Shown piece by piece: positions 7,400 through 42,686 of a stretch of 64,000 nucleotides of DNA. Position numbers and translations under genes: made by a program. Source of the stretch: Rhodococcus antarcticus. Its GTDB lineage: Bacteria > Actinomycetota > Actinomycetes > Mycobacteriales > Mycobacteriaceae. The notes beneath the pieces are model-generated. The model had not been told where the DNA came from and searched no databases. It saw only the letters and a program-made list of their open reading frames with translations. The stretch spans positions 2,914,001 through 2,978,000 of the forward strand of contig NZ_CP110615.1 of NCBI RefSeq assembly GCF_026153295.1, in the 5' to 3' direction. Position 1 is the first letter of the stretch. The number at the start of each line of letters is the position of its first letter.

Positions 7400-9897
7400 G
7401 CCTGGCCTCCTGCGGGAGTGGACTGGTCGACGTTCCCGGAGGAGTCGGTGGAGCCGAGGCCGCCACCGGCCTCGGCGGTGTTCTGACCGGCGGGACCACC
7501 GGCGGCGAGCTGCCCGCGGCCCTGCTGGATGGCCCGCCACACGCGCTGCGGGGAGCACGGCATCTCGACGTCGACGACGCCGAACTGGCGGACGGCGTCG
7601 ATCACCGAGTTCACGACGGCCGGGGTGGAGGCGATGCAGCCGGCCTCGCCCACGCCCTTGACGCCCAGCGGGTTGCTGGTGGCCGGGGTGGTCGTCTGGT
7701 CGACGTTGAAGTGCGGCAGGTCCACCGCCGACGGCACGAGGTAGTCCGCGAGGGTGCCGGTGAGCAGCGTGCCGGACTCGTCGTAGACGCCCTCCTCGTA
7801 CAGGGCCTGCGCGATGCCCTGGGCGAGGCCACCGTGGATCTGGCCCTCCACAATCAGGGGGTTGATCACCACGCCCACGTCGTCGACGCAGGTGTAGTTG
7901 ATGATCTCGACGAAGCCGGTCTCGGTGTCGACCTCCACGGCGCACAGGTGCGTGCCGTGCGGGTAGTTGAAGTTCTCCGGGTCGAACGTGGCCTGGGAGT
8001 CCAGGCTCGGCTCGACGCCGTCGGGCAGGTTGTGCGCGGCGAACACGGCCAGCGAGATGTCGCCGATGGCCACCCCCGCGTCGGTGCCCTTGACGCTGAA
8101 GCGGCCGCCGGTGAACTCCAGGTCGTCGACGGAGCACTCGAGCAGGTGCGCCGCGATGGGCTTGGCCTTCTCGATGACCTTGTCGGCGGCCTGGACGATC
8201 GCGATGCCGCCGACCACCAGCGAGCGGGAGCCGTAGGTGTCCAGGCCCTTCGGCGACACCTGGGTGTCACCGTGCAGCACCTCGACGTCCTCGAACGCCA
8301 CGCCGAGCTTGTCGGCGACGATCTGGCTGAACGCCGTCTCGTGGCCCTGCCCGTGCGGGGTGACGCCGGTGACGACCTCGACCTTGCCGGTGGGCAGCAT
8401 GCGGATCGCCGCGTGCTCCCAGCCGCCGGCGCCGTAGTTCAGCGAGCCCAGCACCCGGGACGGGGCGAGACCGCACATCTCGGTGAACGTCGAGATGCCG
8501 ATGCCGATCTGCTTGACGTCACCGTTCTCGCGGCGGCGGGCCTGCTCGGCACGGAGACCGTCGTAGTCGAACAGCGCCATGGCCTTCTCGGTGGCCGCCT
8601 CGTAGTTGCCCGAGTCGTAGGTCAGGCCGGCGACCGTGGTGAACGGGAACTCCTCGTGGGTGATCCAGTTCTTCTTGCGCAGCTCCATCGGCTCCATGCC
8701 GAGCTCCACCGCGAGCTCGTCCATGATCCGCTCGATGCCGAACGTGGCCTCCGGGCGGCCGGCGCCGCGGTAGGCGTCGGTCCAGGTCTTCGTGGTGAAG
8801 ACGTTCGTGCACGCGAAGTGGTACGCCGGGATCTTGTAGATCGCGTTGAACATGAAGGCCCCAAGCACGGGCACGCCGGGCGTGACCAGGCCGAGGTAGG
8901 CGCCCATGTCGGCCATCAGCTCCACCTTGAGGCCGGTGAGCTTGCCGTCGCGGGTGGCGGTGATGGTGATGTCCTGGATCTGGTCGCGGCCGTGGTGGCC
9001 GGCGAGCAGGGACTCCGAGCGGGACTCGGTGATCTTGACGGGCTTGCCGAGGCGCTGGGCGAGCACCACCGAGAGGAGCTCCTCGGGGGTGAACTGCAGC
9101 TTGCCGCCGAATCCACCGCCCACGTCCGGGGCGATGACGCGGATCTTGTGCTCGGGCATGCCCAGGGTCATGGCGAGCATGGTGCGGACGATGTGCGGCA
9201 CCTGGGTGGCCGACCACAGGGTGAGCTGCTCGCCGGTGGGGTCGCAGACGACCGAGCGCGGTTCCATGAAGGCGGGGATGAGGCGCTGCTGGCGGAAGCG
9301 GCGGGTGACCGTCACCTCCGCGGCGTCGAGCGCGGCCTGGATCGGCTCACCCGTGCCGGCCTCGCCGGAGTCGAAGATCCACAGGGCGTTGCGGTTGGTG
9401 CCCAGCTCGGGGTGGACCAGGTCCGCGCCCTCGGCGAGGGCGGCCTCCATGTCGAGCACGGCGGGCAGCTCGTCGTAGTCGATCTCGATGCCGTCGAGGG
9501 CGTCGGTGGCCTCAGCAGCGCTGCGGGCGACGACGATCGCGACGATCTCGCCGGAGAAGTGCACGGTGTCGACGGCGATGGACGGGTGCGCGGGGGCCTT
9601 CATGTCCGGGGTGATGGCCCAGGCGCAGGGCAGGCTGCCCTGCTCGTCCTTGAGGTCGGCCCCGGTCAGCACGGTGATGACGCCCGGGCGGGTCTTCGCC
9701 TCGGTGGTGTCGATCGCCGTGATGGTCGCGTGGGCGAAGGGGCTGCGCAGCATGGCCACGTGGACCATGCCGGGCAGGGTGATGTTGTCGGTCCACCGGG
9801 TGCGCCCGGTGATCAGGCGCGCATCCTCCTTGCGGAGCCGGGCCTTGCCGATCTCGCTGGTGGACGTGGTCGTGTCGATCGTTGCGGTCATGGTCAC
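7396..9897 (-). CDS. coxL: Form II CO dehydrogenase-like molybdopterin-binding large subunit
   Basis: This is an 833-residue protein of the xanthine-oxidase family. GTG at 9897 is chosen because it gives a 4-base overlap (GTGA) with coxS; ATG at 9891 is an alternative. Molybdopterin-binding and active-site segments are visible: DVGGGFGGK (about 258-266), [13 protein letters not shown], and KGVGEAGC near the C-terminus. The active-site loop reads AYRGAGR (375-381). This is the form II signature; form I CO dehydrogenases carry AYRCSFR with the cysteine that binds copper. With no active-site cysteine, CO oxidation is uncertain and another carbonyl or N-heterocycle substrate is possible. It forms an S2L2M2 enzyme with its neighbours. 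Confidence 0.93.
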
Positions 9898-27144: not shown

Positions 27145-28437
27145 GTGAAGGTCGACGACCTGCTCAAGCCGTTCCCCATCAAGGAGTTCCACCCGTTCCC
27201 CCGCGCCATGATGGGCCCGGGCGCGCACGAGATGATCGGCCCCGAGGCGCTCAAGCTGGGCTTCAGGAAGACCCTGGTGATGACCTCGGGCCTGCGGGGC
27301 ACGGACACGGTGCACAACATCGTCGAGTCCATGCGCTACCACGGCCTCGAGGTCGAGGTCTACGACCAGGTGGAGTCCAACCCCAAGGACTACAACGTCA
27401 TGGACGCGGTGGCCCAGTACACCGAGACCAAGTGCGACAGCATGGTCTCCATCGGCGGCGGCTCCAGCCACGACGCCTGCAAGGGCGCCCGCATCGCCAT
27501 CGCCCACGACGGCCGCAACGTCAACGAGTTCGAGGGTTTCAACAAGAGCGAGAACCCGAAGAACCCGCCGCACATCGCCGTCTCCACCACCGCGGGCACC
27601 GGCTCGGAGACCTCCTGGGCCTACGTCATCACCGACACCACGACCGACCCGGACAACCCGCACAAGTACGTGGCCTTCGACGACGCCTCCGTCACCAGCC
27701 TGGCCATCGACGATCCGGTCCTCTACTACTCCTGCCCGCCGGACTTCACCGCCCAGTGCGGGTTCGACGTGCTGGCCCACGCGAGCGAGCCCTACGTCTC
27801 CCGGCTCAACTTCCAGCCCTCGTTGGGCAACGCGCTGCACGCCATCAAGCTGACGACCGAGAACCTTCGCGCGGCGACCTGGAACGGCGAGGACCTGCCC
27901 GGCCGCGAGGGGATGATGTACGCGCAGTACATCGCCGCGCAGGCGTTCAACTCCGGCGGCCTCGGCATCATCCACTCCATCAGCCACGCCATCAGCGCGT
28001 TCTACGACACCCACCACGGCCTCAACAACGCCGTCGCGCTGCCCCGGGTGTGGGCGTTCAACATGACCGCCGACTACGGCAAGTTCGCCGACATCGCCGT
28101 GGCCATGGGCATCGACACGCACGGCATGAGCGACGAGCGGGCGAGCCACGCGGCCCTCGACGCCGCGATCCAGCTGCTGCGCGACGTGGGCATCGCGGAG
28201 AAGTTCACCGACGTCACCAAGGACACGTACTCCAAGAACCGACTGGGCACCGGACCGACGAAGTACTACGAGGGCCAGAGCGTCATCAAGGGCGACGACG
28301 CGGACATCGACCGCATCACGAACCACGTCCTCGGCGACGCCTGCACCCCGGGCAACCTCAAGCTCTGCACCTTCGAGACCGTCCGCCCGGTGGTCGCGCA
28401 CTGCATGAACGGCGACCTGGACGACCTGATCGGCTGA
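27145..28437 (+). CDS. mno: NDMA-dependent (mycofactocin-associated) methanol dehydrogenase
   Basis: This is a 430-residue iron-containing-ADH-family enzyme starting at GTG 27145, with GAGAGGA upstream. It has the methanol:NDMA oxidoreductase signature: FPIKEFHPFPRAMMGPGAHEMIG, VESNPKDYNVMDAV, SIGGGSSHDACKGARIAIAHDGRNVNEFEGF, STTAGTGSETSWAYVITDT and SHAISAFYDTHHGLNNAVALPRVW with metal-binding histidines. The enzymes hold a tightly bound NAD(H) that is recycled by an external acceptor, now thought to be mycofactocin. It leads an apparent operon with MoxR, VWA and mftM genes, all on the plus strand. The mft locus ends 2 kb upstream. Confidence 0.93.
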   Translation: MKVDDLLKPFPIKEFHPFPRAMMGPGAHEMIGPEALKLGFRKTLVMTSGLRGTDTVHNIVESMRYHGLEVEVYDQVESNPKDYNVMDAVAQYTETKCDSMVSIGGGSSHDACKGARIAIAHDGRNVNEFEGFNKSENPKNPPHIAVSTTAGTGSETSWAYVITDTTTDPDNPHKYVAFDDASVTSLAIDDPVLYYSCPPDFTAQCGFDVLAHASEPYVSRLNFQPSLGNALHAIKLTTENLRAATWNGEDLPGREGMMYAQYIAAQAFNSGGLGIIHSISHAISAFYDTHHGLNNAVALPRVWAFNMTADYGKFADIAVAMGIDTHGMSDERASHAALDAAIQLLRDVGIAEKFTDVTKDTYSKNRLGTGPTKYYEGQSVIKGDDADIDRITNHVLGDACTPGNLKLCTFETVRPVVAHCMNGDLDDLIG

Positions 28438-28478
28438 TCGTCCCCCTTCTCCCTCCCACCCCTCCCACTCCTGCTCCG

Positions 28479-28538
28479 CCACGTGGAACCCTGCGGCCCT
28501 CGCTGACTCGACCGCGGCGACCGCAGGGTTCCACGTGG
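28479..28538. repeat. Perfect 18-bp inverted repeat between mno and moxR
   Basis: CCACGTGGAACCCTGCGG (28479-28496) is repeated exactly in inverse at 28521-28538, with a 24-base spacer. Each arm itself contains the palindrome CCACGTGG. It sits between co-directional genes, 28 bases before the MoxR start. It could be an attenuating terminator, an mRNA stabiliser or a regulator site. Confidence 0.8.
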
Positions 28539-28565
28539 CCGTGGGAGACCCCAGGAAAGGCTCCC

Positions 28566-29819
28566 GTGACCCTCGCCCAGCCCGACTTCGCCAGCGTCGA
28601 CGACGTCGTGACCCGGTTCGCCGAGCACGGGTACATCGCCGACCACACCCTCGCCACCACGGTGTTCCTGCAGACGAGGCTGGACAAGCCCGTCCTGCTG
28701 GAGGGCCCCGCCGGCGTCGGCAAGACCGAGCTGGCCAAGACCCTCGCCGAGGTCACCGGCCGCCGGCTGCTGCGGCTGCAGTGCTACGAGGGCCAGGACG
28801 AGACCAAGGCGCTCTACGAGTGGGACTACGGCAAGCAGCTGCTCTACACCCAGGTGCTCAAGGAGAAGATCGGCCAGCTGGTGGCCGACGCGGACAGCCT
28901 GGGTGAGGCGGTGGACCGCATCGCCGCCCAGGAGAGCGTCTTCTTCTCCGAGCGCTTCCTCGCCCCGCGCCCTTTGCTCGAGGCCATCCGCAGCGAGCAG
29001 CCGGTGGTGCTGCTGGTGGACGAGGTCGACCGCGCGGACGAGGCGCTGGAGGCGGTGCTGCTGGAGCTGCTGGGCGAGAACCAGGTGTCGGTGCCCGAGC
29101 TCGGCACCTTCACCGCCACCACCGCGCCCTACGTGGTGCTGACCTCCAACAACACCCGCGACCTCTCGGCCGCCCTCAAGCGACGCTGCCTGCACATGTT
29201 CCTGGACTACCCCTCCGCCGAGCGCGAGCTGGAGATCGTCCGCACCAAGGAGACCGGGCTGACCGACGCCCTGGCCACCCAGCTGGTGGACGTCGTCCGC
29301 GGACTCCGCGAGCTGGAGCTGCGCAAGAGCCCGTCGATCTCCGAGACCATCGACTGGGCCCGCACCCTGGCCGTGCTCGGAGCCACCGAGCTCACCGCGA
29401 AGGCGTTGTCGGACACCGTGAACGTGGTGGTGAAGTACGAGAAGGACGTGCGCAGGGCCATCGAGGCGCTGCCGCGGCTGGTCGACCCCAACGCGACCCT
29501 CGACGAGGGCCCTCGCGGGCACGGGCACGGGCACGGCGGTCACGACGAGCACCCCTCCCCCAGCGCGGCGAGCGTGCCCCGCGACCCGGACGACGCCGAG
29601 GACTCCGGGCCCCGCGGCAAGGACGTCCGGGCCGGCAAGGACGCACCCGGGCGCCACGACGACGGCTACTACGGAGCTGTCTCGTCACCCACCCCAGCCG
29701 GCCCGGCGACCACCCCCCCGGGCACCCCGGCCGCGGTGCGGCCCAGCCAGGGCAGCCGCAGCTTCGCGAACGGGTTCGGGAAGAAGAAGGCCGTCGACGC
29801 ACCGCGCGGTCGGCGCTGA
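28566..29819 (+). CDS. MoxR-family AAA+ ATPase with His-rich tail
   Basis: This is a 417-residue protein. GTG at 28566 has AGGAAAGG upstream. Walker A is EGPAGVGKTELAK (about 46-58), Walker B is VVLLVDEVDRADE (about 147-159), and the sensor 1 region is LTSNNTRDLSAALKRRCL. The ATPase core ends near residue 310. It is followed by a histidine/glycine cluster (GHGHGHGGHDEH, about 317-328) and a disordered tail. MoxR proteins work with VWA partners to insert cofactors or metals into enzymes. The gene lies between mno and a VWA gene, so a role in maturing the methanol dehydrogenase is likely but inferred. Confidence 0.9.
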   Translation: MTLAQPDFASVDDVVTRFAEHGYIADHTLATTVFLQTRLDKPVLLEGPAGVGKTELAKTLAEVTGRRLLRLQCYEGQDETKALYEWDYGKQLLYTQVLKEKIGQLVADADSLGEAVDRIAAQESVFFSERFLAPRPLLEAIRSEQPVVLLVDEVDRADEALEAVLLELLGENQVSVPELGTFTATTAPYVVLTSNNTRDLSAALKRRCLHMFLDYPSAERELEIVRTKETGLTDALATQLVDVVRGLRELELRKSPSISETIDWARTLAVLGATELTAKALSDTVNVVVKYEKDVRRAIEALPRLVDPNATLDEGPRGHGHGHGGHDEHPSPSAASVPRDPDDAEDSGPRGKDVRAGKDAPGRHDDGYYGAVSSPTPAGPATTPPGTPAAVRPSQGSRSFANGFGKKKAVDAPRGRR

Positions 29820-29820
29820 C

Positions 29821-31362
29821 GTGGAGCAGAGCCTGCACCGGTTCGTCCGGCTGCTGCGCCTGCGCGGGGTGCGGATCTCGGTGCCGGAGATGCTCGACGC
29901 CATGGACGCCGCCGCCGTCCCGGGCATCCTGGCGGACAAGGCGGTGCTGCGCGAGGCGCTGCGGGTCAGCCTGGTCAAGGACCGGGAGGACGACCCGGTG
30001 TTCACCGAGGTCTTCGACAAGTACTTCGCCCTGGTGCGCGTGCAGCCCGAGGAGACCGGCCACGGTCACGGGCACGGCCACGACGACCTCTCCGACGACG
30101 GCGTCCTGGACAAGTTCACCCTCAGCGAGGAGCCCGGTCAGCTGCCCGAGCAGGGCCACGAGCACGGCAAGCCCGCCGACATCCGGGAGTACTTCGACCC
30201 TGACGACCTGGCGGCGCAGTACAACCTGCACCAGGAGGCCAACAAGATCGACCTGGCCGCGATGACCGACGAGATCGTGTTCAGCAAGGACGCCGAGGCC
30301 GTCATGGGCGAGGGCAACCGCGTCCAGATCGAGACCGACCACCTCCGCGGCGCGAGCGCCCCCGGCTCCATCTCCACCCAGACCGGTACCAAGGTGGACA
30401 CCGACCTCTCCATCGCCGAGACCGACGCCCTGTTCGGCTGGCTCGACCAGGGGACGGACGAGAACACCCCGGGGCAGGACCTCACCGACGACGCCGCGGC
30501 CCTGCGGCGGCGGCTGGCCGGGGTCCTCGCAAACCTGCCGGCGGCGCTGAAGAAGCACCTGGAGAGCCTGTTGGCCCTGGAGGACCGCATCGTCGAGGGC
30601 AAGGAGGTCGAGGCCGAGCACGTCGCCAGGGTCGACTCCGTCGGTGAGCACGAGCGTGCCGAGCTGGAGGAGAGCCTGCGCCGGCTGACCCAGAGCCTGC
30701 ACGGCGCGCTGACCCACCGTCGGAAGGCCGGGGCCCGCGGCCGGGTGGACTCCGGGCGCACCATGCGCCGCAACATGCGCTTCGACGGCGTGCCGTTCCG
30801 GCCGGTGACCGTGCAGCGGACCGAGGACAAGCCGCGCCTGGTCCTGCTGACCGACGTCAGCCTCTCGGTCCGGGCCACCGCCCGGTTCACCCTGCACCTG
30901 GTGCACGGCCTGCAAGACCTGGTGAGCCAGGTCCGCACCTTCGTCTTCGTCTCCGAGCTCGCGGAGGTGACCGACCTGTTCGCCGACCACTCCGTGGAGC
31001 ACGCGCTGGGGCTGGTGTTCGGCGGGGAGGTGCTGGACGTGGACGGCAACTCCGACCACGGGGCGGCGTTCGGCCAGTTCCTCGAGGAGCACGGCAACGC
31101 CGTCAACCGCCGCACCACGGTGCTGGTGCTCGCCGACGGCCGCAGCAACGGGCTCGACCCCAACCTCGAGGCGTTCGCGGAGATCAGCCGCCGGGCCAAG
31201 GAGACCATCTGGCTGACCCCCGAGCCGCGCTACTCCTGGGGTCTGGGCAGCTGCGACCTCCCGCTGTACGCCGAGCACTGCCAGCGGGTGCGCGTGGTCC
31301 GCGACCTGACCGGGCTCACCACGACGGCCGAGGCGCTGGCCACCGAGCAGGTGGGACGGTGA
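29821..31362 (+). CDS. VWA-domain protein (CoxE-like) with His-rich insert
   Basis: This is a 513-residue protein starting at GTG 29821, one base past the MoxR stop. The N-terminal part begins LHRFVRLLRLRGVRISVPEMLDA. A histidine run GHGHGHGHDD lies at about 80-89 and another His pair in GHEHGK. The VWA domain carries MIDAS residues DxSxS in LLTDVSLSVRAT (about 342-353). It ends with the aromatic WLTPEPRYSWGLGSCDLPLY stretch seen in CoxE-like proteins. It forms a likely chaperone pair with the preceding MoxR. The histidine runs in both partners suggest metal handling. Its stop overlaps the mftM start (GTGA). Confidence 0.88.
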   Translation: MEQSLHRFVRLLRLRGVRISVPEMLDAMDAAAVPGILADKAVLREALRVSLVKDREDDPVFTEVFDKYFALVRVQPEETGHGHGHGHDDLSDDGVLDKFTLSEEPGQLPEQGHEHGKPADIREYFDPDDLAAQYNLHQEANKIDLAAMTDEIVFSKDAEAVMGEGNRVQIETDHLRGASAPGSISTQTGTKVDTDLSIAETDALFGWLDQGTDENTPGQDLTDDAAALRRRLAGVLANLPAALKKHLESLLALEDRIVEGKEVEAEHVARVDSVGEHERAELEESLRRLTQSLHGALTHRRKAGARGRVDSGRTMRRNMRFDGVPFRPVTVQRTEDKPRLVLLTDVSLSVRATARFTLHLVHGLQDLVSQVRTFVFVSELAEVTDLFADHSVEHALGLVFGGEVLDVDGNSDHGAAFGQFLEEHGNAVNRRTTVLVLADGRSNGLDPNLEAFAEISRRAKETIWLTPEPRYSWGLGSCDLPLYAEHCQRVRVVRDLTGLTTTAEALATEQVGR

Positions 31363-32168
31363 CGCTCGCGCTCGCACCCCTGGACGTCCTCGCGCCCGGG
31401 CGGTCCGGGTCCTGGGCCCACGACGGGGTGGTCGTGGTGCGGGCGCCCGGGGCGGGCCTGCGGGCCACCCGTGGTGCACGGCTGGTCGTGACCCACGGCC
31501 TCACCGCGGACGAGCTCGACGAGTCGCTCGTCGCCCGGGTGGGAGGGCTGGTCCGCGGAGCCCGTGAGTTCGAGCTGGTTCTCACCGGGCTCGTCCGGTC
31601 CACGGTGGACGACCCCCTGCAGGCGTGGACGACGTACTACCGAAACTCCCTGGCCGCCCTCGGCGACGGGTCCGCGGCCTTCGCGCCCGTGCACGACCGG
31701 GCCGCAGGGCTGGTGCGGGGGGCGAGCGTGCTCGACCTCGGCTCGTGCTTCGGGTTCTTCCCCCTGCGCCTGGCCGCGGCCGGGCTGACCGTGACGGCCA
31801 GCGACCTCTGCGCCGGGACCGTGCGCCTGCTGGCTGCGGTGGCGCCGCAGCTCGGGGTGGAGCTCGGGACGCTCGTGTGCGACGCCGCCGCGGTACCCCG
31901 ACCGGACGGCTGCGCCGACACCGTGACCGTGCTGCACGTGCTGGAGCACCTGGACCCCGAGCACGGGGAAGCGGTGCTGGCCGAGGCCGTCCGGCTGGCC
32001 CGGCGCAGGGTGGTGGTGGCGGTACCCCTCGAGGACACCGCCACCACCTGCCACGGCCACGTGCGGACCTTCACCCTGGACGGCCTGGCGGCGCTCGCGG
32101 ACGCCCTGCCCGGCCGGACCCGCGTCAGCGAGCACCACGGCGGCTGGCTGGTGCTCGACGTCGGCTGA
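31359..32168 (+). CDS. mftM: Mycofactocin oligosaccharide methyltransferase
   Basis: This is a 269-residue SAM-dependent methyltransferase. GTG at 31359 overlaps the VWA stop by 4 bases. The Rossmann motif I is VLDLGSCFGFFPLRLA (about 124-139), with TVTASDLCAG as motif II and VTVLHVLEHLDPEHG as the acidic/HVLEH motif. The 110 residues before it (DELDESLVARVGGLVRGAREFELVLTGL, WTTYYRNSLAALG) match the MftM type that 2-O-methylates the second glucose of mycofactocin's glycan chain. In mycobacteria mftM is encoded near the mno-type gene rather than in the main mft cluster; the same linkage is seen here. The assignment is strong from context plus fold. Confidence 0.85.
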   Translation: MTLALAPLDVLAPGRSGSWAHDGVVVVRAPGAGLRATRGARLVVTHGLTADELDESLVARVGGLVRGAREFELVLTGLVRSTVDDPLQAWTTYYRNSLAALGDGSAAFAPVHDRAAGLVRGASVLDLGSCFGFFPLRLAAAGLTVTASDLCAGTVRLLAAVAPQLGVELGTLVCDAAAVPRPDGCADTVTVLHVLEHLDPEHGEAVLAEAVRLARRRVVVAVPLEDTATTCHGHVRTFTLDGLAALADALPGRTRVSEHHGGWLVLDVG

Positions 32169-32950: not shown

Positions 32951-33601
32951 TCAGATCAAGCCACTCTTGCTCGCCGCGTACACGGCCTCCGCACGCCGGG
33001 AGACCGAGAGCTTGCGCATGATGTTGCTGACGTGGAACTTCACCGTCGTCGCGGAGATGTACAGCCGCCCGCCGATGTCCTTGTTGGACAGACCGTTGGC
33101 CAGCAGCCGGAGCACGTCCAGCTCGCGGTCGGTGAGCCGTTCGTGCTGCACGCTGCGCCCGTTGAGGGATCGGACCACCGCAGCAGCGCTTCGGGCGTCG
33201 AACGCGCTCTCACCCAGCGACACGGCCCGGATGGCTCGCACGAGCTCGGTGGTGTCCACGTCCTTGACCACGTAGCCCCGGGCCCCGGCGTGCACGGCCT
33301 GCACGACGAGGTGCTCGTCGAGGAAGGTGGTGAGCACGAGCAGCCCCAGGCCGGGATGTTCCCGGGAGAGCACGGTGCACAGCTCGAGGCCCTCGTGGTC
33401 CGAGCGCGCGGAGAGCTTGAGGTCCAGCAGCACGACGTCCGGCGCCACGCTCGCGACCACCGCCACCGCCTCGGCGAACGAGGACGCCTCCCCCACCACC
33501 GTCAGGTCCGGCTCCCGCTCCAGCACCGAGCGAAGTCCCTCGCGGAGGATCGCGTGGTCGTCGACCAGGACGATCCGTGAGACCGCGACCGCCGTGCTCA
33601 C
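32951..33601 (-). CDS. NarL/LuxR-type response regulator (MadR-like)
   Basis: This is a 216-residue protein starting at GTG 33601, overlapping the kinase stop by 4 bases. The receiver domain has acidic residues Asp14-Asp15, the phosphoacceptor Asp60 in VVLLDLKLS, and the conserved Lys in GYVVKDVD. The LuxR-type helix-turn-helix is LTDRELDVLRLLANGLSNKDIGGRLYISATTVKFHVSNIMRKL (about 146-190). It forms an operon with an alcohol dehydrogenase and a sensor kinase. This resembles the MadS/MadR-type two-component pairs described with mycofactocin-associated dehydrogenases. That name is an inference from context. Confidence 0.88.
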   Translation of the reverse strand: MSTAVAVSRIVLVDDHAILREGLRSVLEREPDLTVVGEASSFAEAVAVVASVAPDVVLLDLKLSARSDHEGLELCTVLSREHPGLGLLVLTTFLDEHLVVQAVHAGARGYVVKDVDTTELVRAIRAVSLGESAFDARSAAAVVRSLNGRSVQHERLTDRELDVLRLLANGLSNKDIGGRLYISATTVKFHVSNIMRKLSVSRRAEAVYAASKSGLI

Positions 33602-34992
33602 GCCCGCGCCGCCTGGTCCAGCGGCACGCGGGCGGCCACGCGCACCCCGCCGAGCCGGGCCCGGCGCACCTCGAGCGTGCCACCGAGCTCACGCGCCCGG
33701 GCCTGCATGTTCGCCAGACCCCGGTGCCGACCGTCGAGGTCGCTGGCGGCGGCCAGCCGCAGGACGGTGCGCAGCCGCGCCGGGTCGCCGTCCCCGTCGT
33801 CGGCCACCGAGAGCACCACGTCCCCCGGGTGGAAGGCCAGCCGCACCACGGCGCGCGAGGCGTGGCCGTGCACCGCCGTGTTGAACAGCGCCTCGCCCGC
33901 GATCCGCAGCAGGGCGTGCTCGACGCCCGACGGCAGCTCGCACGGGTTCCCCTCCACGCGCAGCAGCACCTGGAGCTCGTCGGGCATGTGCACCGTGCAG
34001 AGCTGCTCCAGCATCTCCGGCAGCGAGGACCGACCGGCGTCGTCACCGTGGTTGAGCGCGTAGATGGCCGAGCGCAGCTGCTCGACCGCGCGCCGGGTGA
34101 GGTCCTTGGCCACTCCCAGTCGCTCGACGAGCCGCTCGTCGACACCCCTGCCGTCCCGGGCGAGCTCGCTGCGGCACACCTCGACCTGCATGCCCGCCGA
34201 GAGCACGCACTGGGTGACGCTGTCGTGCAGCTCGCGGGCGATGCGGTGCCGCTCGGAGTCGAGGACCTCCCGCCGGTGGGCCACCCCGAGCTGGCGCTGG
34301 GTCGCCTCGAGCTCGGCGTTGCGCACGGCGAGGTCGCCCGCGTGCTGGCGGGACTGCTCGTAGGCACGCTCGGAGCTGACCAGCAGGGAGCGGCTGCGCT
34401 GGTACAGCGCGGAGTTCTGCAGGGCCACGGCCGTCTGGCTGGCCAGGATCCGGAGCACCGAGAGGTCGGTGCCGTCGATCGCACGACGCTCCGGCGTCCA
34501 CGCCACGAAGGCCCCCACCACCCCACCGTCGAGCTCCACCGGCACGTGCACGTGGTGGGTGGGGCCGGGGCCGTCGCCGTGTCCGTGGTCGTGCTCCACG
34601 AGCAGCCCGGCCCGGGTGCCGTCCAGGTGCACCCGCACGAGCTCGGGGAGCGTGGCGGAGACGGGGCGGGCCTCCCCACCCGGCCCGAGCACGAGCTCGC
34701 GGGGGTCCGCGTCCGGCAGCGCACCGTCGGCCAGGGCGAACAGCACCCAGTCCGCGGACAGGTGCTCCGCGGCGGCCTCGACCACCGAGCGAACCAGCGT
34801 CTCCGGCCCCTCGACCGTGCGGACCAGGGCGTGGGAGATCGTGTCCAGGGCGTGCACCACGCGCTCCAGACGCTCGGCCGCCCCGCGGTACTGCGGGTAG
34901 TAGGTCCCCTTGCCCGAACGAACCCCGGTGAGGCTCTCCAGGTCCGGGCGCTGGGCCCGGCGGGGGTGCGCGAAGGTGGGGTCGGCCGCCAT
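33598..34992 (-). CDS. GAF-domain sensor histidine kinase (MadS-like)
   Basis: This is a 464-residue protein. ATG at 34992 is two bases past the alcohol dehydrogenase stop, so translation is probably coupled. A GAF-like domain spans about 55-195 and includes a His-rich stretch (VEHDHGHGDGPGPTHHVHV, about 132-150). A short coiled segment precedes the HisKA_3 dimerisation helix with His256 in RHRIARELHDSVTQ. The HATPase domain has N-box-like GEALFNTAVHGHA and G-box DDGDGD. There are no membrane segments, so it senses a cytoplasmic signal. The His-rich sensor loop might bind a metal or gas ligand. Confidence 0.88.
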   Translation of the reverse strand: MAADPTFAHPRRAQRPDLESLTGVRSGKGTYYPQYRGAAERLERVVHALDTISHALVRTVEGPETLVRSVVEAAAEHLSADWVLFALADGALPDADPRELVLGPGGEARPVSATLPELVRVHLDGTRAGLLVEHDHGHGDGPGPTHHVHVPVELDGGVVGAFVAWTPERRAIDGTDLSVLRILASQTAVALQNSALYQRSRSLLVSSERAYEQSRQHAGDLAVRNAELEATQRQLGVAHRREVLDSERHRIARELHDSVTQCVLSAGMQVEVCRSELARDGRGVDERLVERLGVAKDLTRRAVEQLRSAIYALNHGDDAGRSSLPEMLEQLCTVHMPDELQVLLRVEGNPCELPSGVEHALLRIAGEALFNTAVHGHASRAVVRLAFHPGDVVLSVADDGDGDPARLRTVLRLAAASDLDGRHRGLANMQARARELGGTLEVRRARLGGVRVAARVPLDQAARA

Positions 34993-34994
34993 CG

Positions 34995-36224
34995 CTACAG
35001 CGCCGCCCGGAACATCGTCATGACCTGCTCCACCGAGGCGGTGCGGGGGTTCGTCGACATGCACGCGTCACCCAGGGTGAGGCTGGCCAGCCGGGGCAGG
35101 TCGGCCTCGGTGACCCCGAGCTGGGCGAGCCCGGCGGGCACCCCCACCCGCCGGGCCAGCACGGCCACGGCGTCGGCCACGGCCTCCCCCGCCTCGGGTG
35201 CCGGCCCGCGCGCCTCGGGCAGGCCCAGCGAGGCTGCGATGGCGAGGAAGGGCGTCGGGTCGCCCAGGGCGTTGAAGCGGATGACGTGCGGGAGCAGGAC
35301 CCCGTTCACCACGCCGTGCGGCAGGTCCAGCATGCCGCCGACCTGGTGGCTCATCGCGTGGGTCGCGCCGAGGATGGCGTTGGTGAAGGCCAGGCCGGCC
35401 TCGAGGCTCGCCTGCGCCATGAGGCTGCGGTGCCCGGTGTGCGCGGGATCGTCGATGGTGTGCACGAGGTTCTGCTCGACCAGGCCGATGGCCCGCAGGG
35501 CGTGGTGGTCGGTGAGCGGGTTGTGGGCCAGGGAGACGAAGGCCTCGATGCCGTGGGTGAGCGCGTCGAGCCCGGTCGCCGCGTTGAGCCACTCCGGCAT
35601 CGTGGTGAGCAGCCGGGGGTCGATGACCGTGACGTCCGGGACGAGCACCCGCCCGATGATGGTGATCTTGGTGTGCCGCTGGGTGTCGGTGACGATGCAG
35701 AACTGGGAGACGTCCGCCCCCGTGCCCGAGGTGGACGGAACCACGACCAGGGGAGGGATGGGCAGGGTCACGAGGTCCACGCCCTCGTAGTCCAGGATGT
35801 GGCCGCCGTTCGAGGCCAGCACCGCGACGCCCTTGGCCGCATCGATGACGGAGCCGCCACCCAGTCCCACCAGCACGTCGCAGCCCGCGGCCGCGTAGGT
35901 CTCGTACCCCGCCGCGATCTCGTGGTCCTTCGGGTTCGGGGTCAACCCGCTCCACACCACCGGCTGCAGCGCGGCGTCGCGCAGGTGCCCGAGCAGCTCG
36001 TCCACCCAGCCGGACTCGACGAGACCCGGATCGGTCACCAGCATCGGCCGGTGCCCACCCAGGCGCCGGGCGGCGTGTGCGGCCTCGACGAGCGAACCCG
36101 GCCCGAACACGATCTCCGGCGCGTGGAACTTGGCGATGCGCGGGGGCCGGCCGTCCGACGCCGCCCGCCCGTGCGGGGCTTCGACCGTGGGGGGCGACGG
36201 GGTGGGCAGCTGGGTCACGACCAC
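34995..36224 (-). CDS. Iron-containing alcohol dehydrogenase
   Basis: This is a 409-residue group III alcohol dehydrogenase starting at GTG 36224, with GAGGAGGGG upstream. The NAD-binding GLGGGSVIDAAKG is at about 118-130. Metal ligands are expected in DALTHGIEAFVS and in GATHAMSHQVGGMLDLPHGVVNG. The N-terminal 30 residues are a Pro-rich extension absent from typical members. It is a relative of the methanol dehydrogenase at 27 kb, but lacks the NDMA-type KEFHPFPRA signature. It leads an operon with the sensor kinase and response regulator, so the pair probably senses its substrate or product. A Crp-like dyad lies 62 bases upstream. Confidence 0.9.
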   Translation of the reverse strand: MVVTQLPTPSPPTVEAPHGRAASDGRPPRIAKFHAPEIVFGPGSLVEAAHAARRLGGHRPMLVTDPGLVESGWVDELLGHLRDAALQPVVWSGLTPNPKDHEIAAGYETYAAAGCDVLVGLGGGSVIDAAKGVAVLASNGGHILDYEGVDLVTLPIPPLVVVPSTSGTGADVSQFCIVTDTQRHTKITIIGRVLVPDVTVIDPRLLTTMPEWLNAATGLDALTHGIEAFVSLAHNPLTDHHALRAIGLVEQNLVHTIDDPAHTGHRSLMAQASLEAGLAFTNAILGATHAMSHQVGGMLDLPHGVVNGVLLPHVIRFNALGDPTPFLAIAASLGLPEARGPAPEAGEAVADAVAVLARRVGVPAGLAQLGVTEADLPRLASLTLGDACMSTNPRTASVEQVMTMFRAAL

Positions 36225-36430: not shown

Positions 36431-37579
36431 TCAGCCCGTGTGGTGGATGCTGCCCTCGAGCTCGGTGAGCCGCTTGCCCCCGCCGCCCCAGCGTCCCGCG
36501 ATGATCTCCGCAGCGATGGACACGGCCGTCTCCTCGGGCGTGCGTGCTCCCAGGTCCAGCCCGATGGGGCTGTACAGCCGCGCGAGCTGGGCGTCGGTCA
36601 TCCCCCGCTCGCGCAGCTGGGACTCGCGGTCGTCGTGGGTGCGGCGGCTGCCCATCGCGCCCACGTAGGCCGGGCGGGCGTCCCAGCCGTCGTCGCCCAG
36701 CGCGAGCTCCAGCAGCGGCACGTCGAACTTGGCGTCGTGGGTGAGCACGCAGAGCACGGTGCGCTCGTCCAGGCGCCCCGCGTCCCGCTCGGCCAGCAGG
36801 TACTGGTGCGGCCAGGCCACCACGACCTCGTCGGCGGCCGGGAAGCGCTTGGGCGTGGCGAAGACGGCCCGCGCGTCGCAGACGGTCACGTGGTAGCCGA
36901 GGAAGTGGCCCATCCGGGCGGCCGCGGCCGCGAAGTCGATGGCGCCGAAGACGAGCATGCGGGCGGGCGGGGCGTAGGAGGCCACGAACACCTCCATGCC
37001 GTCGCCGAGTCGCTCGCCGTCCGCGCCGTAGCGCAGGGTGCCGTTGCGCCCCGCGGCCAGCAGCCCGCGGGCGTCGTCGGTGACGGCGGCGTCGGCGCGC
37101 ACCGAGCCCAGGGTGCCGCTGGCCCGCTGGCCGTCCGCCCCGTCGGTGAACAGCACCCGTCGCTGGCCCACCCGGGCCGGGTCCGGGTGCACCGTGGTGG
37201 TGGCCACGGCCACCGGACGGCCGGTCGCGATGGCCTCGGCCACCTCACCGAGCTCCGGGAAGGTCTGGGGGTCGAGCTTCTCCACGAACACGTCGAGGAT
37301 GCCGCCACAGGTCAGGCCCACGGCGAAGGCGTCGTCGTCGGAGACGCCGTAGCGCTGCAGCACCGGCACCCCGTCCGCGACGACCTGCTGGGCCAGCTCG
37401 TACACCGCGCCCTCGACGCAGCCACCGCTGACGCTGCCGACCACCGCGCCGTCGCCGCCGAGCAGCATCGAGGCCCCCGGCTGGCGCGGGGAGGACTTCC
37501 ACGTCCCCACGACGGTGGCCAGGGCCACGGGCCGGCCCTCCTTCCACCAGTGCAGCGTCTCCGACAGGACCTCACGCAT
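36431..37579 (-). CDS. XdhC/CoxI-family molybdenum cofactor maturation protein
   Basis: This is a 382-residue protein starting at ATG 37579, overlapping the preceding VWA gene by 8 bases. The N-terminal XdhC/CoxI domain has ALATVVGTWKSSPRQPGASML, SVSGGCVEGAVYELA and GLTCGGILDVFVE with the conserved cysteines. The C-terminal Rossmann-like domain has MLVFGAIDFAAAAARMG, VCDARAVFATPKRFP and YVGAMGSRRTHDDR. XdhC proteins bind and sulfurate or deliver the Mo cofactor to xanthine-oxidase-family enzymes. It probably matures the CoxSLM enzyme encoded 27 kb away, since no other Mo hydroxylase is present in the window. Confidence 0.92.
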   Translation of the reverse strand: MREVLSETLHWWKEGRPVALATVVGTWKSSPRQPGASMLLGGDGAVVGSVSGGCVEGAVYELAQQVVADGVPVLQRYGVSDDDAFAVGLTCGGILDVFVEKLDPQTFPELGEVAEAIATGRPVAVATTTVHPDPARVGQRRVLFTDGADGQRASGTLGSVRADAAVTDDARGLLAAGRNGTLRYGADGERLGDGMEVFVASYAPPARMLVFGAIDFAAAAARMGHFLGYHVTVCDARAVFATPKRFPAADEVVVAWPHQYLLAERDAGRLDERTVLCVLTHDAKFDVPLLELALGDDGWDARPAYVGAMGSRRTHDDRESQLRERGMTDAQLARLYSPIGLDLGARTPEETAVSIAAEIIAGRWGGGGKRLTELEGSIHHTG

Positions 37580-38714
37580 CTGCCACCACCTCCACGAGCT
37601 CCTCGAGCGCCACGAGCGAGTGCCCCGACAGCAACCGGTGCAGCGCGGGCAGCGCCGCGACGATGCCGGACTGGACCGGGGCGTAGCCCGCACGACCGGC
37701 GTGCGGGTTGGACCAGACGACGGCTCGCGCCAGCCGCGAGAGCCGTGCGACCTGCTCGCCGAGCAGCCGGGCGTCCCCGCGCTCCCAGCCGTCGGAGAAC
37801 ACCACGACCACCGCGCCCCGGGCCAGTCCGCGCTGCCCCCAGCGGTCGAGGAAGACCTTGAGGGTCTCCCCCAGCCGGGTGCCCCCGGCGTAGTCGGGGA
37901 CGGCCGCGGCGACCGCGCGCAGGGCCACGTCCGGGTCGCGGTGGCGCATCGCCCGGGTCAGCCGCGTCAGCCGGGTCCCCAGGGTGAACGTCTCCACGGT
38001 GGCCGGGGCGGCGCAGGTGAGCACGTGGGCGAAGCGCAGCAGCGAGTCGGCGTAGGGCGACATGGAGCCGGAGACGTCGATGAGCAGCACCAGCCGTCGC
38101 GGTCGCTGCGCCCGTCGGTGGTGCACGGGTCGGACGAGCTCGCCACCGGCCCTCAGCATGGTGCGCACGGTGGCGCGCGGGTCGACCGGACCGCGGGCGG
38201 ACCTGCGACGACGGACGGCACGGCGGGTGGCGGGGCGGTAGCGCAGGCCGGCGAGCAGCGCCCGCACGTGCTCGCGCTCGACGGGGCTCAGCTCGCTGAA
38301 GTCCTTGTGCCGCAGCACCTCGTTCGCACTCGCAGCAGTGGTGAGCTCCTCGGGCGGGCGGTCGTCGGCCTGGGCCTTGGGCGCGGAGCCGGTGAGCGAG
38401 GCCTTCAGGCTCGGGGTGGGGATCTCGGTGGGCGCCGGACCCTGCTGGCGCTTGGTGGTGCCCGAGTACCAGGCGGAGAACGCGGCGTCGTAGCGCGGCA
38501 GGTCGTCAGCCTGGCTGCACAGGGTCAACCGACCCGCCCAGTACGTCGACGCCGGACCTGCGGGCTCGTCGGGGGCCCCCAGCTCGGCCAGCGCGGCGAG
38601 GAAGGCGCGGCCCCGGGAGGGATCGGCGGGCACGCCGGCGGCCCGCAGCACCCGGACGAAGCCCAGGTGTGCGCGCAGCAGCTCGGTGCTCCCGTCCACC
38701 GCCGGGGTGGTCAC
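37572..38714 (-). CDS. coxE: CoxE-like VWA-domain protein
   Basis: This is a 380-residue protein starting at GTG 38714, overlapping coxD by 4 bases. The N-terminal half is helical and charged. The VWA domain carries a perfect MIDAS LLIDVSGSMSPYADS (about 197-211), with the second metal-site threonine in GGTRLGE and an aspartate in VVFSDGWERGD. In Oligotropha, CoxD (AAA+) and CoxE (VWA) are needed to build the active site of CO dehydrogenase. It is followed by XdhC, giving a coxD-coxE-xdhC maturation operon. Confidence 0.88.
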   Translation of the reverse strand: MTTPAVDGSTELLRAHLGFVRVLRAAGVPADPSRGRAFLAALAELGAPDEPAGPASTYWAGRLTLCSQADDLPRYDAAFSAWYSGTTKRQQGPAPTEIPTPSLKASLTGSAPKAQADDRPPEELTTAASANEVLRHKDFSELSPVEREHVRALLAGLRYRPATRRAVRRRRSARGPVDPRATVRTMLRAGGELVRPVHHRRAQRPRRLVLLIDVSGSMSPYADSLLRFAHVLTCAAPATVETFTLGTRLTRLTRAMRHRDPDVALRAVAAAVPDYAGGTRLGETLKVFLDRWGQRGLARGAVVVVFSDGWERGDARLLGEQVARLSRLARAVVWSNPHAGRAGYAPVQSGIVAALPALHRLLSGHSLVALEELVEVVADA

Positions 38715-39589
38715 CGGAAGAGGATCCCGTCCAGCCCCAGCTGCACGATCTTGTCGCCGTCCTCCCGGTACTTCAGCACCGCACCCATCGTGGCGGCGGC
38801 CGACTCGACGTCGAGCTCGGTGCGTCCCAGGGCGTGCAGCGCCTGCGCCCAGTCCAGGGTCTCGGCCACCCCGGGCGGCTTGAGCAGGTCCAGGCTCCGC
38901 AGGGCCCGGGTGGCCTTGGCGACCTGCCGCGCCAGGGTCTCGCTCACCTGGGGCAGCCGCTCGCGCACGATGGCCACCTCCCGCTCGAGGTCGGGGTGGT
39001 CGACCCAGTGGTAGAGGCAGCGGCGCTTGAGGGCGTCGTGCACCTCGCGCGTGCGGTTGGAGGTCAGCACCACCAGCGGGGGGACGTCCGCCGCGATCTC
39101 CCCGAGCTCGGGGATGCTCACCCGGTTCTCGGAGAGCACCTGGAGCAGGAACGCCTCGAACTCGTCGTCGGCACGGTCGATCTCGTCGACCAGCAGCACG
39201 CAGGGAGCCAGCCGCAGGGCCTGCAGCAGGGGCCGGGCGAGCAGGAAGCGCTCCGAGTACAGCTCGCCCTCCGCAGCGTCCACCCCTCCGGTCGCAGCCC
39301 CGCGGCTCTCCATCGCGCGCAGGTGCAGCAGCTGGCGCGGGAAGTCCCAGTCGTAGAGGGCCTGGCTGGCGTCGATGCCCTCGTGGCACTGCAGCCGCAC
39401 CATCGGCAGCCCGAGCGCCTCGGACAGCGCGGTGGCCAGCGCGGTCTTGCCGGTGCCGGGCTCGCCCTCGCAGAACAGCGGGCGCGCCATCGCCATCGCG
39501 AGGTAGGCGGCGGTGGCCACGCCCTCGTCGGGCAGGTAGCCCACCGAGCGCAGCGCGGTCGCCATGTCGGCGGGGGAGGTGATGTCCAC
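38711..39589 (-). CDS. coxD: CoxD-like MoxR AAA+ ATPase
   Basis: This is a 292-residue protein starting at GTG 39589. Walker A is EGEPGTGKTALATALSE (about 40-56), Walker B is VLLVDEIDRADDEFEAF, sensor 1 is LTSNRTREVHDALKRRC, and it ends cleanly with the C-terminal lid (GLDGILFR). It lacks the His-rich tail of the MoxR encoded at 28.6 kb, so the two ATPases are distinct types. CoxD is a maturation chaperone that helps install the metal-sulfur part of the CODH active site. It is the first gene of coxD-coxE-xdhC. Confidence 0.9.
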   Translation of the reverse strand: MDITSPADMATALRSVGYLPDEGVATAAYLAMAMARPLFCEGEPGTGKTALATALSEALGLPMVRLQCHEGIDASQALYDWDFPRQLLHLRAMESRGAATGGVDAAEGELYSERFLLARPLLQALRLAPCVLLVDEIDRADDEFEAFLLQVLSENRVSIPELGEIAADVPPLVVLTSNRTREVHDALKRRCLYHWVDHPDLEREVAIVRERLPQVSETLARQVAKATRALRSLDLLKPPGVAETLDWAQALHALGRTELDVESAAATMGAVLKYREDGDKIVQLGLDGILFR

Positions 39590-39666: not shown

Positions 39667-40584
39667 TCAGCCGGCGCGGGCCGCGGTGCGGACGATCCCG
39701 TCCACCAGGGTCGGCCACACCCAGCGGGCGAGGTCGTGGCCCATGCCCTTCACCTCGACGAGCTCCGCCCCGGGCACGGCCGCGGCGGTGGCCCGGCCGC
39801 CCGAGGGCTGGATCACCCGGTCGCGCAGCCCGTGCAGCACCAGCGTCGGGCACCGCACCGCCCGCAGGTCCGCCGTCCGGTCGCGCTCCGCCACGCACGC
39901 CGCCAGCTGACGGCCTCCGCCGGAGCCGTCCGTGGTGTCCCGTGCCGTCGCCCGCCGCAGCGTCGCCCGCACGTCCTCGTCGTCGACGGCGGTGCGGCCG
40001 ACCGAGCCGATCCGGGTGAACGAGCGCACCAGCCCCTCCACCGGGTCCGCGGCCGGCGGACGCAGGAACTCCGGCACCATCCGCCAGGCCACCTTCCCGC
40101 TCCGGCCGTCCCCGGGGCGGCCCATCACCGACGTCAGCGACCGGGTCAGCCCGGGGTGGCGGATCGCGACCTCCTGCGCCACGAGCGCCCCGAGCGAGAC
40201 CCCGACCACGTGCGCGCCCCGCGGGTCGAGGTGCGCGACCAGGCCCGCCGCGTCGTCGGCCATGTCGGCCAGGGTGTAGACCGGTCGGGCGCGACGACGG
40301 ACGAAGCCCCAGGCGCTGATCCCCGGTCCCGCCAGCTGCGTCGACCCGCCGACGTCGCGGTTGTCGAAGCGGACCACGTGGAACCCGGCGTCCACCAGGT
40401 CGGCGCAGAGGTCGTCGCGCCACCACTCCATGCTCAGCCCGAGACCCATGACGAGCAGGACGGTCGGGGCGGCGGGATCGCCCAGGGACTCGAAAGCCAG
40501 GTCGACCCCACCCACCCGAGCGCGCTGCACGTCCACGAGCGGGCTTCGGCGAGCCGGCCCGGATCGGTTCACCCCGACGATCAC
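39667..40584 (-). CDS. Alpha/beta hydrolase
   Basis: This is a 305-residue protein if GTG 40584 is used; GTG 40536 (289 residues) is equally plausible, as it starts just before the conserved core VQRARVGGVDLAFES. The oxyanion/HG-like segment is LLVMGLGLSMEWW, the nucleophile elbow is GVSLGAL, the acid is in LHGLRDRVI, and the histidine is in KGMGHDLAR. The MGLGLSMEWW opening is common in the RsbQ/3-oxoadipate-lactonase-like group with no fixed substrate. It is divergent from the VOC gene and follows coxD on the same strand after 77 bases. Confidence 0.8.
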   Translation of the reverse strand: MIVGVNRSGPARRSPLVDVQRARVGGVDLAFESLGDPAAPTVLLVMGLGLSMEWWRDDLCADLVDAGFHVVRFDNRDVGGSTQLAGPGISAWGFVRRRARPVYTLADMADDAAGLVAHLDPRGAHVVGVSLGALVAQEVAIRHPGLTRSLTSVMGRPGDGRSGKVAWRMVPEFLRPPAADPVEGLVRSFTRIGSVGRTAVDDEDVRATLRRATARDTTDGSGGGRQLAACVAERDRTADLRAVRCPTLVLHGLRDRVIQPSGGRATAAAVPGAELVEVKGMGHDLARWVWPTLVDGIVRTAARAG

Positions 40585-41076: not shown

Positions 41077-41951
41077 CCCTCGAGCACCACCGGGTCCCCA
41101 CGGCCGGCGCCACCATCTCCGCGGTGAGCGCCGGCTCGGGTCCACCGGTCCTCCTGCTGCACGGCTACCCGCAGAGCCGCGCCATGTGGGACGGCGTGCT
41201 GGGCGAGCTCGCCGCGGAGCACACGGTGGTCGCCGCCGACCTGCGCGGCTACGGCGACTCCACGCGGCCGGCCACCGCCCCCGGCACCGACCACGCCGAG
41301 CACTCCTTCCGGGCCATGGCCGCCGACCAGGTGCAGGTGATGGCCGCGCTGGGCCACGAGCGGTTCACCGTGATCGGGCACGACCGCGGCGCCCGCACGG
41401 CCCACCGGATGGCGCTGGACCACCCCGACGTCGTGCAGCGGCTCGCGGTGCTGGACGTGCTGCCCACCCGGCACGTGCTGGCCACCGTCGACCGCACCGT
41501 GGCCCAGGCGTACTACCACTGGTTCTTCCTCACCCAGCCGGAGCCGCTGCCCGAGACGCTCATCGGTGCGGACCCGCTGGCCTTCCTGCGGCTGACCCTC
41601 GGTGGGGCGCTGGCCGGGGGTTCGGGGGTGTTCAGCCCCGAGGCGATGGCCGAGTACGAGCGGTGCTTCCAGCTGCCGGGGGCGGTGCACTCGGTGTGTG
41701 AGGACTACCGGGCCGCGGCCAGCATCGACCAGGTGCACGACGAGGCCGACGCAGGGCGGTTGCTCGGCCAGCCGCTGCTGGCGCTGTGGGGCACCCGGGG
41801 ACTGGTCGGTCGCTCCGACGTGCTCGACGTGTGGCGCGGCTACGCCGCGGACGTGACCGGGGCGAGCGTGGACGCCGGTCACTTCCTGGTCGAGGAGCGG
41901 CCGGTCGAGACCCTGGCCCTGCTGCAGGAGTGGCTGGGCTCGACCTCCTGA
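41073..41951 (+). CDS. Haloacetate (fluoroacetate) dehalogenase-like alpha/beta hydrolase
   Basis: This is a 292-residue protein starting at GTG 41073. The family's HGYPQSRAMW is at 30-39. The nucleophile is aspartate rather than serine: IGHDRGAR, Asp104, with Arg105 and Arg108. Further on are Asp128 in VLDVLPTRHV, His149-Trp150 in YYHWFFLTQPEPLPE, Tyr212 in CEDYRAAAS and His270 in VDAGHFLVEE. These match, at nearly constant offset, the catalytic and fluoride-binding residues known from the Rhodopseudomonas fluoroacetate dehalogenase (D110, R111, R114, D134, H155, W156, Y219, H280). It probably hydrolyses haloacetates to glycolate; an epoxide hydrolase is the alternative. Confidence 0.85.
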   Translation: MTLEHHRVPTAGATISAVSAGSGPPVLLLHGYPQSRAMWDGVLGELAAEHTVVAADLRGYGDSTRPATAPGTDHAEHSFRAMAADQVQVMAALGHERFTVIGHDRGARTAHRMALDHPDVVQRLAVLDVLPTRHVLATVDRTVAQAYYHWFFLTQPEPLPETLIGADPLAFLRLTLGGALAGGSGVFSPEAMAEYERCFQLPGAVHSVCEDYRAAASIDQVHDEADAGRLLGQPLLALWGTRGLVGRSDVLDVWRGYAADVTGASVDAGHFLVEERPVETLALLQEWLGSTS

Positions 41952-42039
41952 CCCCGTGCGGCGCGCCACCCTCGCACCGGGGCCTGCCCAGCACGCAGGT
42001 CGCCCGCGGTCAGGGTGGGGGCGGGCGTCCTAGCTCGGG

Positions 42040-42663
42040 TCAGGGGCCGTCGGGCTCGGGGGCCCCGGGCTCGGGGGTGTCGATGTCGGGGGTGTCGATG
42101 TCGGGGGTGTCGATGTCGGGGGTGTCGATGTCGGGGGTGTCGATGTCGACGCCCGTGGCGAGGTCCCCGCACTCCACCGCCAGCACGTCCGTCCTCCCGC
42201 GCAGGAAGTCCCGCGCCCCGTGGTCGCCCGTGGCCGCCGCCAGCACGCCCGCCCAGTGCTCGCGCCCGAGCAGCACCGGGTGCCCGCCCCGCCCGCCGAA
42301 CACCGCCCGCGCGAGCGGTGCGCCGGTGCCCAGCACCCGCGCCACCACGTCGGCGCCCACGTCCGGGGTGTCCACCAGGTGCAGCACGGCCCGGTCGGCG
42401 TCGCCCGCCCGGGCCGCCCGCAGACCCGCCCGCAGCGACGCGCTCATCCCGTCGGCCCAGTCGTGGGCCACCACCACGCGCACGCCCGCGGGCACCAGCG
42501 GGCGCACGCGCTCCGCCCGGGCCCCGAGCACCACCAGCACCTCGGCGCACCCACCGTCGGCCAGGGCGGTCACGGCCGTGGCCACCCATCCCGGGACGAG
42601 CGCCTTGGGGTGGCCGTAGCGCGTGCCCGCCCCGGCGGCCAGCAGCACCCCGATCGCGTCCAC
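42040..42663 (-). CDS. MocA-like molybdenum cofactor nucleotidyltransferase with pentapeptide-repeat tail
   Basis: This is a 207-residue protein starting at GTG 42663. It has the nucleotide-binding loop VLLAAGAGTRYGHPKAL (about 6-22), then DWADGMSASLRAGLRAA, VLHLVDTPDVG (the metal-binding DTPDV) and GGRGGHPVLLGREHW. These are the landmarks of MobA/MocA-type transferases, which make molybdopterin cytosine dinucleotide, the Mo cofactor form used by CO dehydrogenases. The C-terminal 36 residues end in five exact DIDTP repeats plus an acidic/Pro tail, not part of the enzyme fold. It fits as a maturation gene for the cox enzyme. Confidence 0.85.
   Translation of the reverse strand: MDAIGVLLAAGAGTRYGHPKALVPGWVATAVTALADGGCAEVLVVLGARAERVRPLVPAGVRVVVAHDWADGMSASLRAGLRAARAGDADRAVLHLVDTPDVGADVVARVLGTGAPLARAVFGGRGGHPVLLGREHWAGVLAAATGDHGARDFLRGRTDVLAVECGDLATGVDIDTPDIDTPDIDTPDIDTPDIDTPEPGAPEPDGP
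42073..42147. repeat. Five perfect 15-bp tandem repeats inside the MocA-like gene
   Basis: The unit GGGGGTGTCGATGTC is repeated five times without a mismatch. On the minus strand it encodes DIDTP five times at the C-terminus of the MocA-like protein. Because 15 bases is a multiple of three, copy-number change keeps the frame. Confidence 0.95.
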
Positions 42664-42686
42664 GCCGACGATCCTGCACGACGAAC

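Follow-up and report, generated by a model that had tools for sequence, protein, structure and literature searches.

Histidine-rich segments were found in both partners of a MoxR/VWA protein pair encoded beside mno, the gene for an NDMA-type (i.e. mycofactocin-dependent) methanol/alcohol dehydrogenase, in a 64,000-nt stretch of Rhodococcus antarcticus DNA (hereafter the window, within which all positions are numbered). The locus under study occupies 27145–32168 of the forward strand and comprises four genes, namely mno, a MoxR AAA+ ATPase gene, a gene for a CoxE-type VWA protein and mftM. Across the loci compared, the His runs appear as a conserved and coupled feature of the two partners and were confined to mno-linked pairs. 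The best explanation, in which our confidence is evenly balanced, is that the pair would act as a NorQD-like metal-insertion machine for the dehydrogenase with a built-in metal-binding store.

Paired histidine-rich segments of the MoxR and VWA proteins

A first-pass annotation of the window had reported the run GHGHGHGGHDEH in the MoxR tail and GHGHGHGHDD near residue 80 of the VWA protein; both were recovered, at residues 318–329 and 80–89, respectively. For comparison between loci, the tail was taken as the residues past the conserved MoxR core and was scored as His-rich if some 30-residue stretch contained at least four His. A His-rich tail was present in 104 of 107 mno loci of the window's type (excluding the outlying mno of L060), with tail lengths of 37–139 aa, as compared to 0/45 MoxR paralogues encoded away from mno, whose tails were mostly 6–29 aa long with 0–2 His. 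One more His-tailed locus (L062) lay too near a contig edge for the presence of mno to be judged. In the VWA protein, the pattern HxHxHxD...GHxH, placed in the linker N-terminal to the VWA domain, was present in 103/103 scorable His-tailed mno loci and, in a 40-sequence alignment, residues H83, H85, H87, D89, D92, H113 and H115 were invariant. Residue shuffling matched the run in 2/20,000 shuffles of MoxR and 1,338/20,000 of the VWA protein; as shuffles of the latter reach the run often, conservation and not composition is decisive for this motif. The His runs in the two proteins are not due to chance.

AlphaFold2 models were of modest confidence (mean pLDDT, i.e. predicted local distance difference test, of 58 and 66) and were, therefore, used solely to call ordered and disordered regions. 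MoxR was modelled as a folded AAA+ core ending near residue 305, followed by a tail that is disordered from residue ~306 onwards. The core (PF07728, 55.2 bits) had a conserved Walker A motif, GPAGVGK(T), and a conserved Walker B motif, VVLLVDEVDRAD. The model of the VWA protein consisted of a helical N-terminal domain, a disordered segment at residues 71–118 (pLDDT <50) that includes the two His motifs, and a folded C-terminal VWA domain, in which the metal ion-dependent adhesion site (MIDAS) DVSLS is of the DxSxS type with D345, S347 and S349 invariant in the 40-sequence alignment. The dense, conserved His tracts of both partners are thus predicted to sit in flexible segments.

Slippage in GC-rich DNA could generate neutral Gly-His repeats, and Gly-His alternation derived from GGC-CAC repeats was frequent in the MoxR tails. 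However, His remained at ~50% of the MoxR tract as its partner residues differed between lineages (i.e. G, D, S, T, A, E and P). The coefficient of variation was 0.14 for His and 0.54 for Gly, but the tract was chosen by its His content, which biases the figure upward, and the comparison of lineages is hence preferred. Both His codons were used in 74/105 MoxR tails. Moreover, no tract was found among the 45 paralogues, the VWA-protein motif was a conserved block of non-repetitive sequence, and the two tracts were lost jointly. A neutral repeat was thus largely refuted by His constancy, restriction to mno, conservation of the VWA-protein motif and joint loss, and we regard it as extremely improbable.

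Linkage to mno and the dehydrogenase metal site

Gene order bore out the proposal of a MoxR/VWA pair dedicated to mno. In a phylum-wide sample of 296 genomes, 16 encoded a strong mno match and a MoxR gene lay directly 3' of mno in 15/15 readable downstream regions. Most of these mno-linked MoxR proteins were the top-scoring MoxR matches, with a lower score for the MoxR beside the outlying mno of G156. Similarly, mno and MoxR were adjacent in 79/80 loci from the genome collection, spanning about 16 named genera (including Rhodococcoides, Williamsia, Nocardioides, Janibacter, Streptomyces, Amycolatopsis, Pseudonocardia, Saccharopolyspora, Kineosporia, Geodermatophilus and Mycolicibacterium); the exception was a second mno copy in Pseudonocardia acidicola (L104). 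No consistent client was found among the neighbours of control MoxR genes (10 proteins). The other MoxR/VWA pair of the window (37572–39589, −) had no His runs, as previously noted, with a MoxR tail of 10 aa and 0 His and a VWA protein of the CoxE type. This pair adjoins an apparent xdhC-type gene. The one CoxL-type motif of the window, at 8775 (−), is about 29 kb away from it.

Enzymes of the mno type are reported to hold zinc and magnesium together with a tightly bound, non-exchangeable nicotinamide. The metal ligands of the window's dehydrogenase are D208, H212, H277 and H291, the Asp-His-His-His site of the iron-containing alcohol dehydrogenase (Fe-ADH) family. These ligands were kept in mno proteins of the His type (104 sequences) and in 28 others, and lined up with those of solved Fe-ADHs (3bfj, 8zwd and 8zrl). 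An altered dehydrogenase metal site was ruled out as the cause of the His tracts, as the ligands were kept in all types, including the lineages that have lost the tracts.

A different client was also considered, with the pair mainly serving a second Fe-ADH, similar to 1,3-propanediol dehydrogenase, or both dehydrogenases. In most of the mycobacterial loci examined, the VWA gene was followed by the gene for this enzyme in the same orientation. In the window and in many other genera, however, it was encoded on the other strand at a distance of several kb, or the region yielded no copy of it, whereas mno and the pair remained together; we consider this reading very unlikely.

The first-pass annotation had further coupled the pair to synthesis of the methylated cofactor. 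The gene order supported this in many genera: 65/104 His-type loci had mftM 3' of the VWA gene in the same orientation, 38 of them within 60 bases, noting that many of the cases scored as lacking mftM stem from short fetched regions. By contrast, mftM was inverted and about 4–5 kb away in most mycobacterial loci examined and in some other Mycobacteriaceae. As the position of mftM varies among loci, the link to cofactor methylation is one of gene order.

Two types of mno locus

Scores for mno in the window's own family fell into two groups, with the window type at 640–695 bits and a sister type at >817 bits. The sister type has the same MoxR/VWA pair with a His-poor MoxR tail of 40–63 aa, often ending in motifs like RPANTTTAVFRGHGG, and no His motif was found in its VWA protein. 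Both types were present in one genome in five cases (G328, G497, G514, G522 and G613). Both types are represented in Mycobacterium, where a genome usually carries just one of them; gene order and regulators are mostly shared between the two. In a Pseudonocardia locus (L120), the two mno types were near each other, one MoxR tail being His-rich and the other His-free.

The three exceptions among the 107 window-type loci represent two lineages, L219/L220 and L228, in both of which the MoxR tract had been lost together with the VWA-protein motif. On a tree of MoxR cores, the tail trait changed state three times in total, a count that does not distinguish gain from loss, such that the direction of these changes is an interpretation. 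A pairs test of coupled change had too few pairs for significance.

Comparison with known systems

The nearest solved relatives of the pair are NorQ and NorD. A Foldseek search of the PDB with the MoxR model returned NorQ structures as the best matches. NorQ and NorD make up a MoxR/VWA pair responsible for iron insertion into nitric oxide reductase; in a 2026 structural study, NorQ was proposed to twist and stretch the NorD linker between the N-terminal and VWA domains, and this linker region was reported to be essential for metal insertion (PMC13036017). The window's pair shares the MoxR AAA+ core, a partner consisting of an N-terminal domain, a disordered linker and a C-terminal VWA domain with a MIDAS, and adjacency to the metalloenzyme gene. 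A NorQD-like machine is proposed for mno because the His motifs of the VWA protein occupy the place matching the NorD linker. The systems differ in that the window's client is a soluble dehydrogenase of the Fe-ADH fold and in that His-rich segments occur on both window partners, whereas one paper on NorQD, searched by terms, yielded no mention of a His-rich feature.

The NCBIfam families MadB (NF047784) and MadC (NF047783) describe the same kind of pair. The window's MoxR and VWA proteins scored under the curated cut-offs of MadB (384.9 vs 475 bits) and MadC (261.9 vs 600 bits), respectively, and were, therefore, not filed under these names. Two sampled proteins exceeded the MadB cut-off (G278, 500 bits; G288, 547.8 bits), both encoded directly 3' of sister-type mno, for which the tails are His-poor. 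Several His-rich nickel/zinc metallochaperones (i.e. HypB, SlyD, UreE and CooJ) are NTPases or chaperones with a variable His-rich extension in some lineages only. The window's putative metal-binding extensions differ in being on both MoxR/VWA members, and the likeness is drawn without a claim of homology. A literature search found no paper tying MadB/MadC to mycofactocin or alcohol dehydrogenase and none on the paired His-rich feature, the original MftM, EgaA, MnoSR and mno papers being outside its scope. Provisionally, the pairing of His stretches appears to be novel within a MadB/MadC-related layout that is otherwise partly known.

An alternative is that the pair is a remodelling activase and not a metal loader, opening the dehydrogenase for insertion or refreshing of nicotinamide or for entry of mycofactocin in the manner of CbbQ/CbbO with Rubisco; the His runs would then serve only in metal buffering, pH sensing or keeping the proteins soluble. 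Other MoxR/VWA pairs work in this way, CbbQ was among the PDB relatives, the nicotinamide of mno-type enzymes is non-exchangeable and the sister mno type manages without His runs. This unlikely but serious alternative leaves unexplained, however, why His motifs are present in both partners and are kept and lost jointly.

A putative metal-insertion machine

In the preferred NorQD-like mechanism, MoxR and the VWA protein would together form a dedicated maturation machine of the mno dehydrogenase. Driven by ATP, a MoxR hexamer would exert a pull on the VWA protein; the latter would dock on the dehydrogenase and open its active-site cleft, allowing the catalytic metal (most likely zinc, or else another divalent ion) to enter. 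Binding and hand-over of this metal would fall to the His-rich tail of MoxR and to the motif in the VWA linker, providing the motor with its own metal store. More tentatively, the pair may carry its own zinc on both partners, uniting metallochaperone and insertion motor in one complex for a mycofactocin-dependent dehydrogenase; in that case, mno systems of the His-rich and His-poor kinds would offer two alternative solutions that a single genome sometimes retains side by side, perhaps to suit differing metal supply.

Published data link a related operon to zinc. The Mycobacterium smegmatis mno operon (MSMEG_6242–6238, with 6237 and 6236) encodes, as in the window, a dehydrogenase, an AAA ATPase, a hypothetical protein, a propanediol dehydrogenase, MnoS, MnoR and a methyltransferase (PMC11303327, PMC7174638), although mftM directly follows the VWA gene in the window and the mnoSR and propanediol dehydrogenase genes are inverted. 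MSMEG_6237 expression changed by +7.4-fold on zinc chelation and −11.2-fold on zinc excess, the latter also altering MSMEG_6242 (−4.6), 6241 (−3.7) and 6240 (−3.0) (PMC7174638). In the window itself, no match to a Zur box was found at ≤3 mismatches to a mycobacterial-type consensus, giving no sign of direct Zur control. The M. smegmatis responses are also in keeping with the His runs being a metal reservoir or regulatory sensor, in which metal bound to the tail would switch the AAA+ motor on or off and match maturation to zinc supply with no direct hand-over. The flexibility of the tail and linker motif, apart from the folded domains of the AlphaFold2 models, fits such a role; however, sequence hardly separates a sensor from a metal-loading store, and we consider a sensor rather improbable.

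Several observations weigh against the metal-insertion mechanism. The M. smegmatis operon is also down-regulated in zur and smtB mutants (PMC7174638) and, hence, its zinc response may be indirect. Typing of the M. smegmatis mno by gene order failed, as both types share this order, such that this species may have either type. His-rich tails can have other roles. The independent evidence for coupling is thin given the few changes of the tail trait on the tree. Finally, the sister type has the same operon and metal ligands with no His runs, indicating that dehydrogenases can mature without them and that the runs are an accessory of one mno type and not a requirement. The metal-loading machine envisaged in the first-pass annotation remains plausible and fits NorQ/NorD, with His runs that are conserved, coupled and mno-linked, but the runs do not extend to mno in general.

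Organization of the locus

The coordinates of the locus and its surroundings are given in Table 1. The gene set and spacing described previously were confirmed, with a 1-base gap between the MoxR and VWA genes and a 4-base overlap between the VWA gene and mftM. The mno gene lies directly upstream on the same strand; its 128-base gap to MoxR is not tight and contains a hairpin. The mno and MftM proteins passed the curated cut-offs of their profiles.

Table 1. Features of the mno locus and neighbouring genes in the window
Feature	Position	Strand	Evidence
mno, NDMA-type (mycofactocin-dependent) methanol/alcohol dehydrogenase, Fe-ADH fold	27145..28437	+	TIGR04266 641.6 bits (cut-off 625); PF00465/PF25137
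Long inverted repeat between mno and MoxR gene, RNA hairpin	28478..28539	.	Near-perfect; arms are copies of a dispersed genomic element
MoxR AAA+ ATPase (MadB-like), GTG start, 417 aa	28566..29819	+	PF07728; NF047784 384.9 bits (cut-off 475); AlphaFold2 model; NorQ nearest PDB fold
His-rich tract GHGHGHGGHDEH in MoxR tail, residues 318–329	29517..29552	+	
Conserved C-terminal part of MoxR tail, PGRHDDGYYG ... QGSRSFA ... basic end	29646..29819	+	Tail alignment
VWA protein (MadC-like/CoxE type), 513 aa	29821..31362	+	PF05762 121.8 bits; NF047783 261.9 bits (cut-off 600); AlphaFold2 model
First His motif of VWA protein, GHGHGHGHDD, residues 80–89	30058..30087	+	H83/H85/H87/D89 invariant; within low-confidence stretch 71–118
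Second His motif of VWA protein, GHEHGKP, residues 112–118	30154..30174	+	G112, H113, H115, P118 invariant
mftM, mycofactocin oligosaccharide methyltransferase	31359..32168	+	NF041255 330 bits (cut-off 200)
Response regulator, MnoR-like	32951..33601	−	Synteny kept with mno loci; named by synteny with M. smegmatis mnoR (PMC11303327)
Sensor histidine kinase, MnoS-like	33598..35064	−	Conserved synteny
Second Fe-ADH, 1,3-propanediol-dehydrogenase-like; possible second client of MoxR/VWA pair	34995..36224	−	Synteny match

The hairpin between mno and MoxR had a predicted RNA folding energy of −65 kcal/mol (z −6.5). Its arms, CCACGTGGAACCCTGCGG, matched an element with 20 genome copies at ≤2 mismatches, as compared to 1 for the reversed control; window positions 40374–40391 were noted together with this element. 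The element also occurred in 42-base tandem arrays of 7.8 and 4.4 copies, at L235:1125–1452 (G000:C1 about 3626124–3626451) and L237:549–740, respectively. A separate tandem DNA repeat at 41879–42679 of the window would be read as GVSMSGVSMS in one orientation and as RHRHPRHRHP in the reverse, and is probably non-coding.

Implications

These findings bear on where MoxR/VWA machines obtain their metal. The coupled His segments beside a defined soluble client make this question testable, and the His-poor sister type, sometimes present in the same genome, provides a built-in control. If correct, the proposed metal-insertion machine would explain a maturation step of a main alcohol dehydrogenase in mycofactocin-using actinobacteria.

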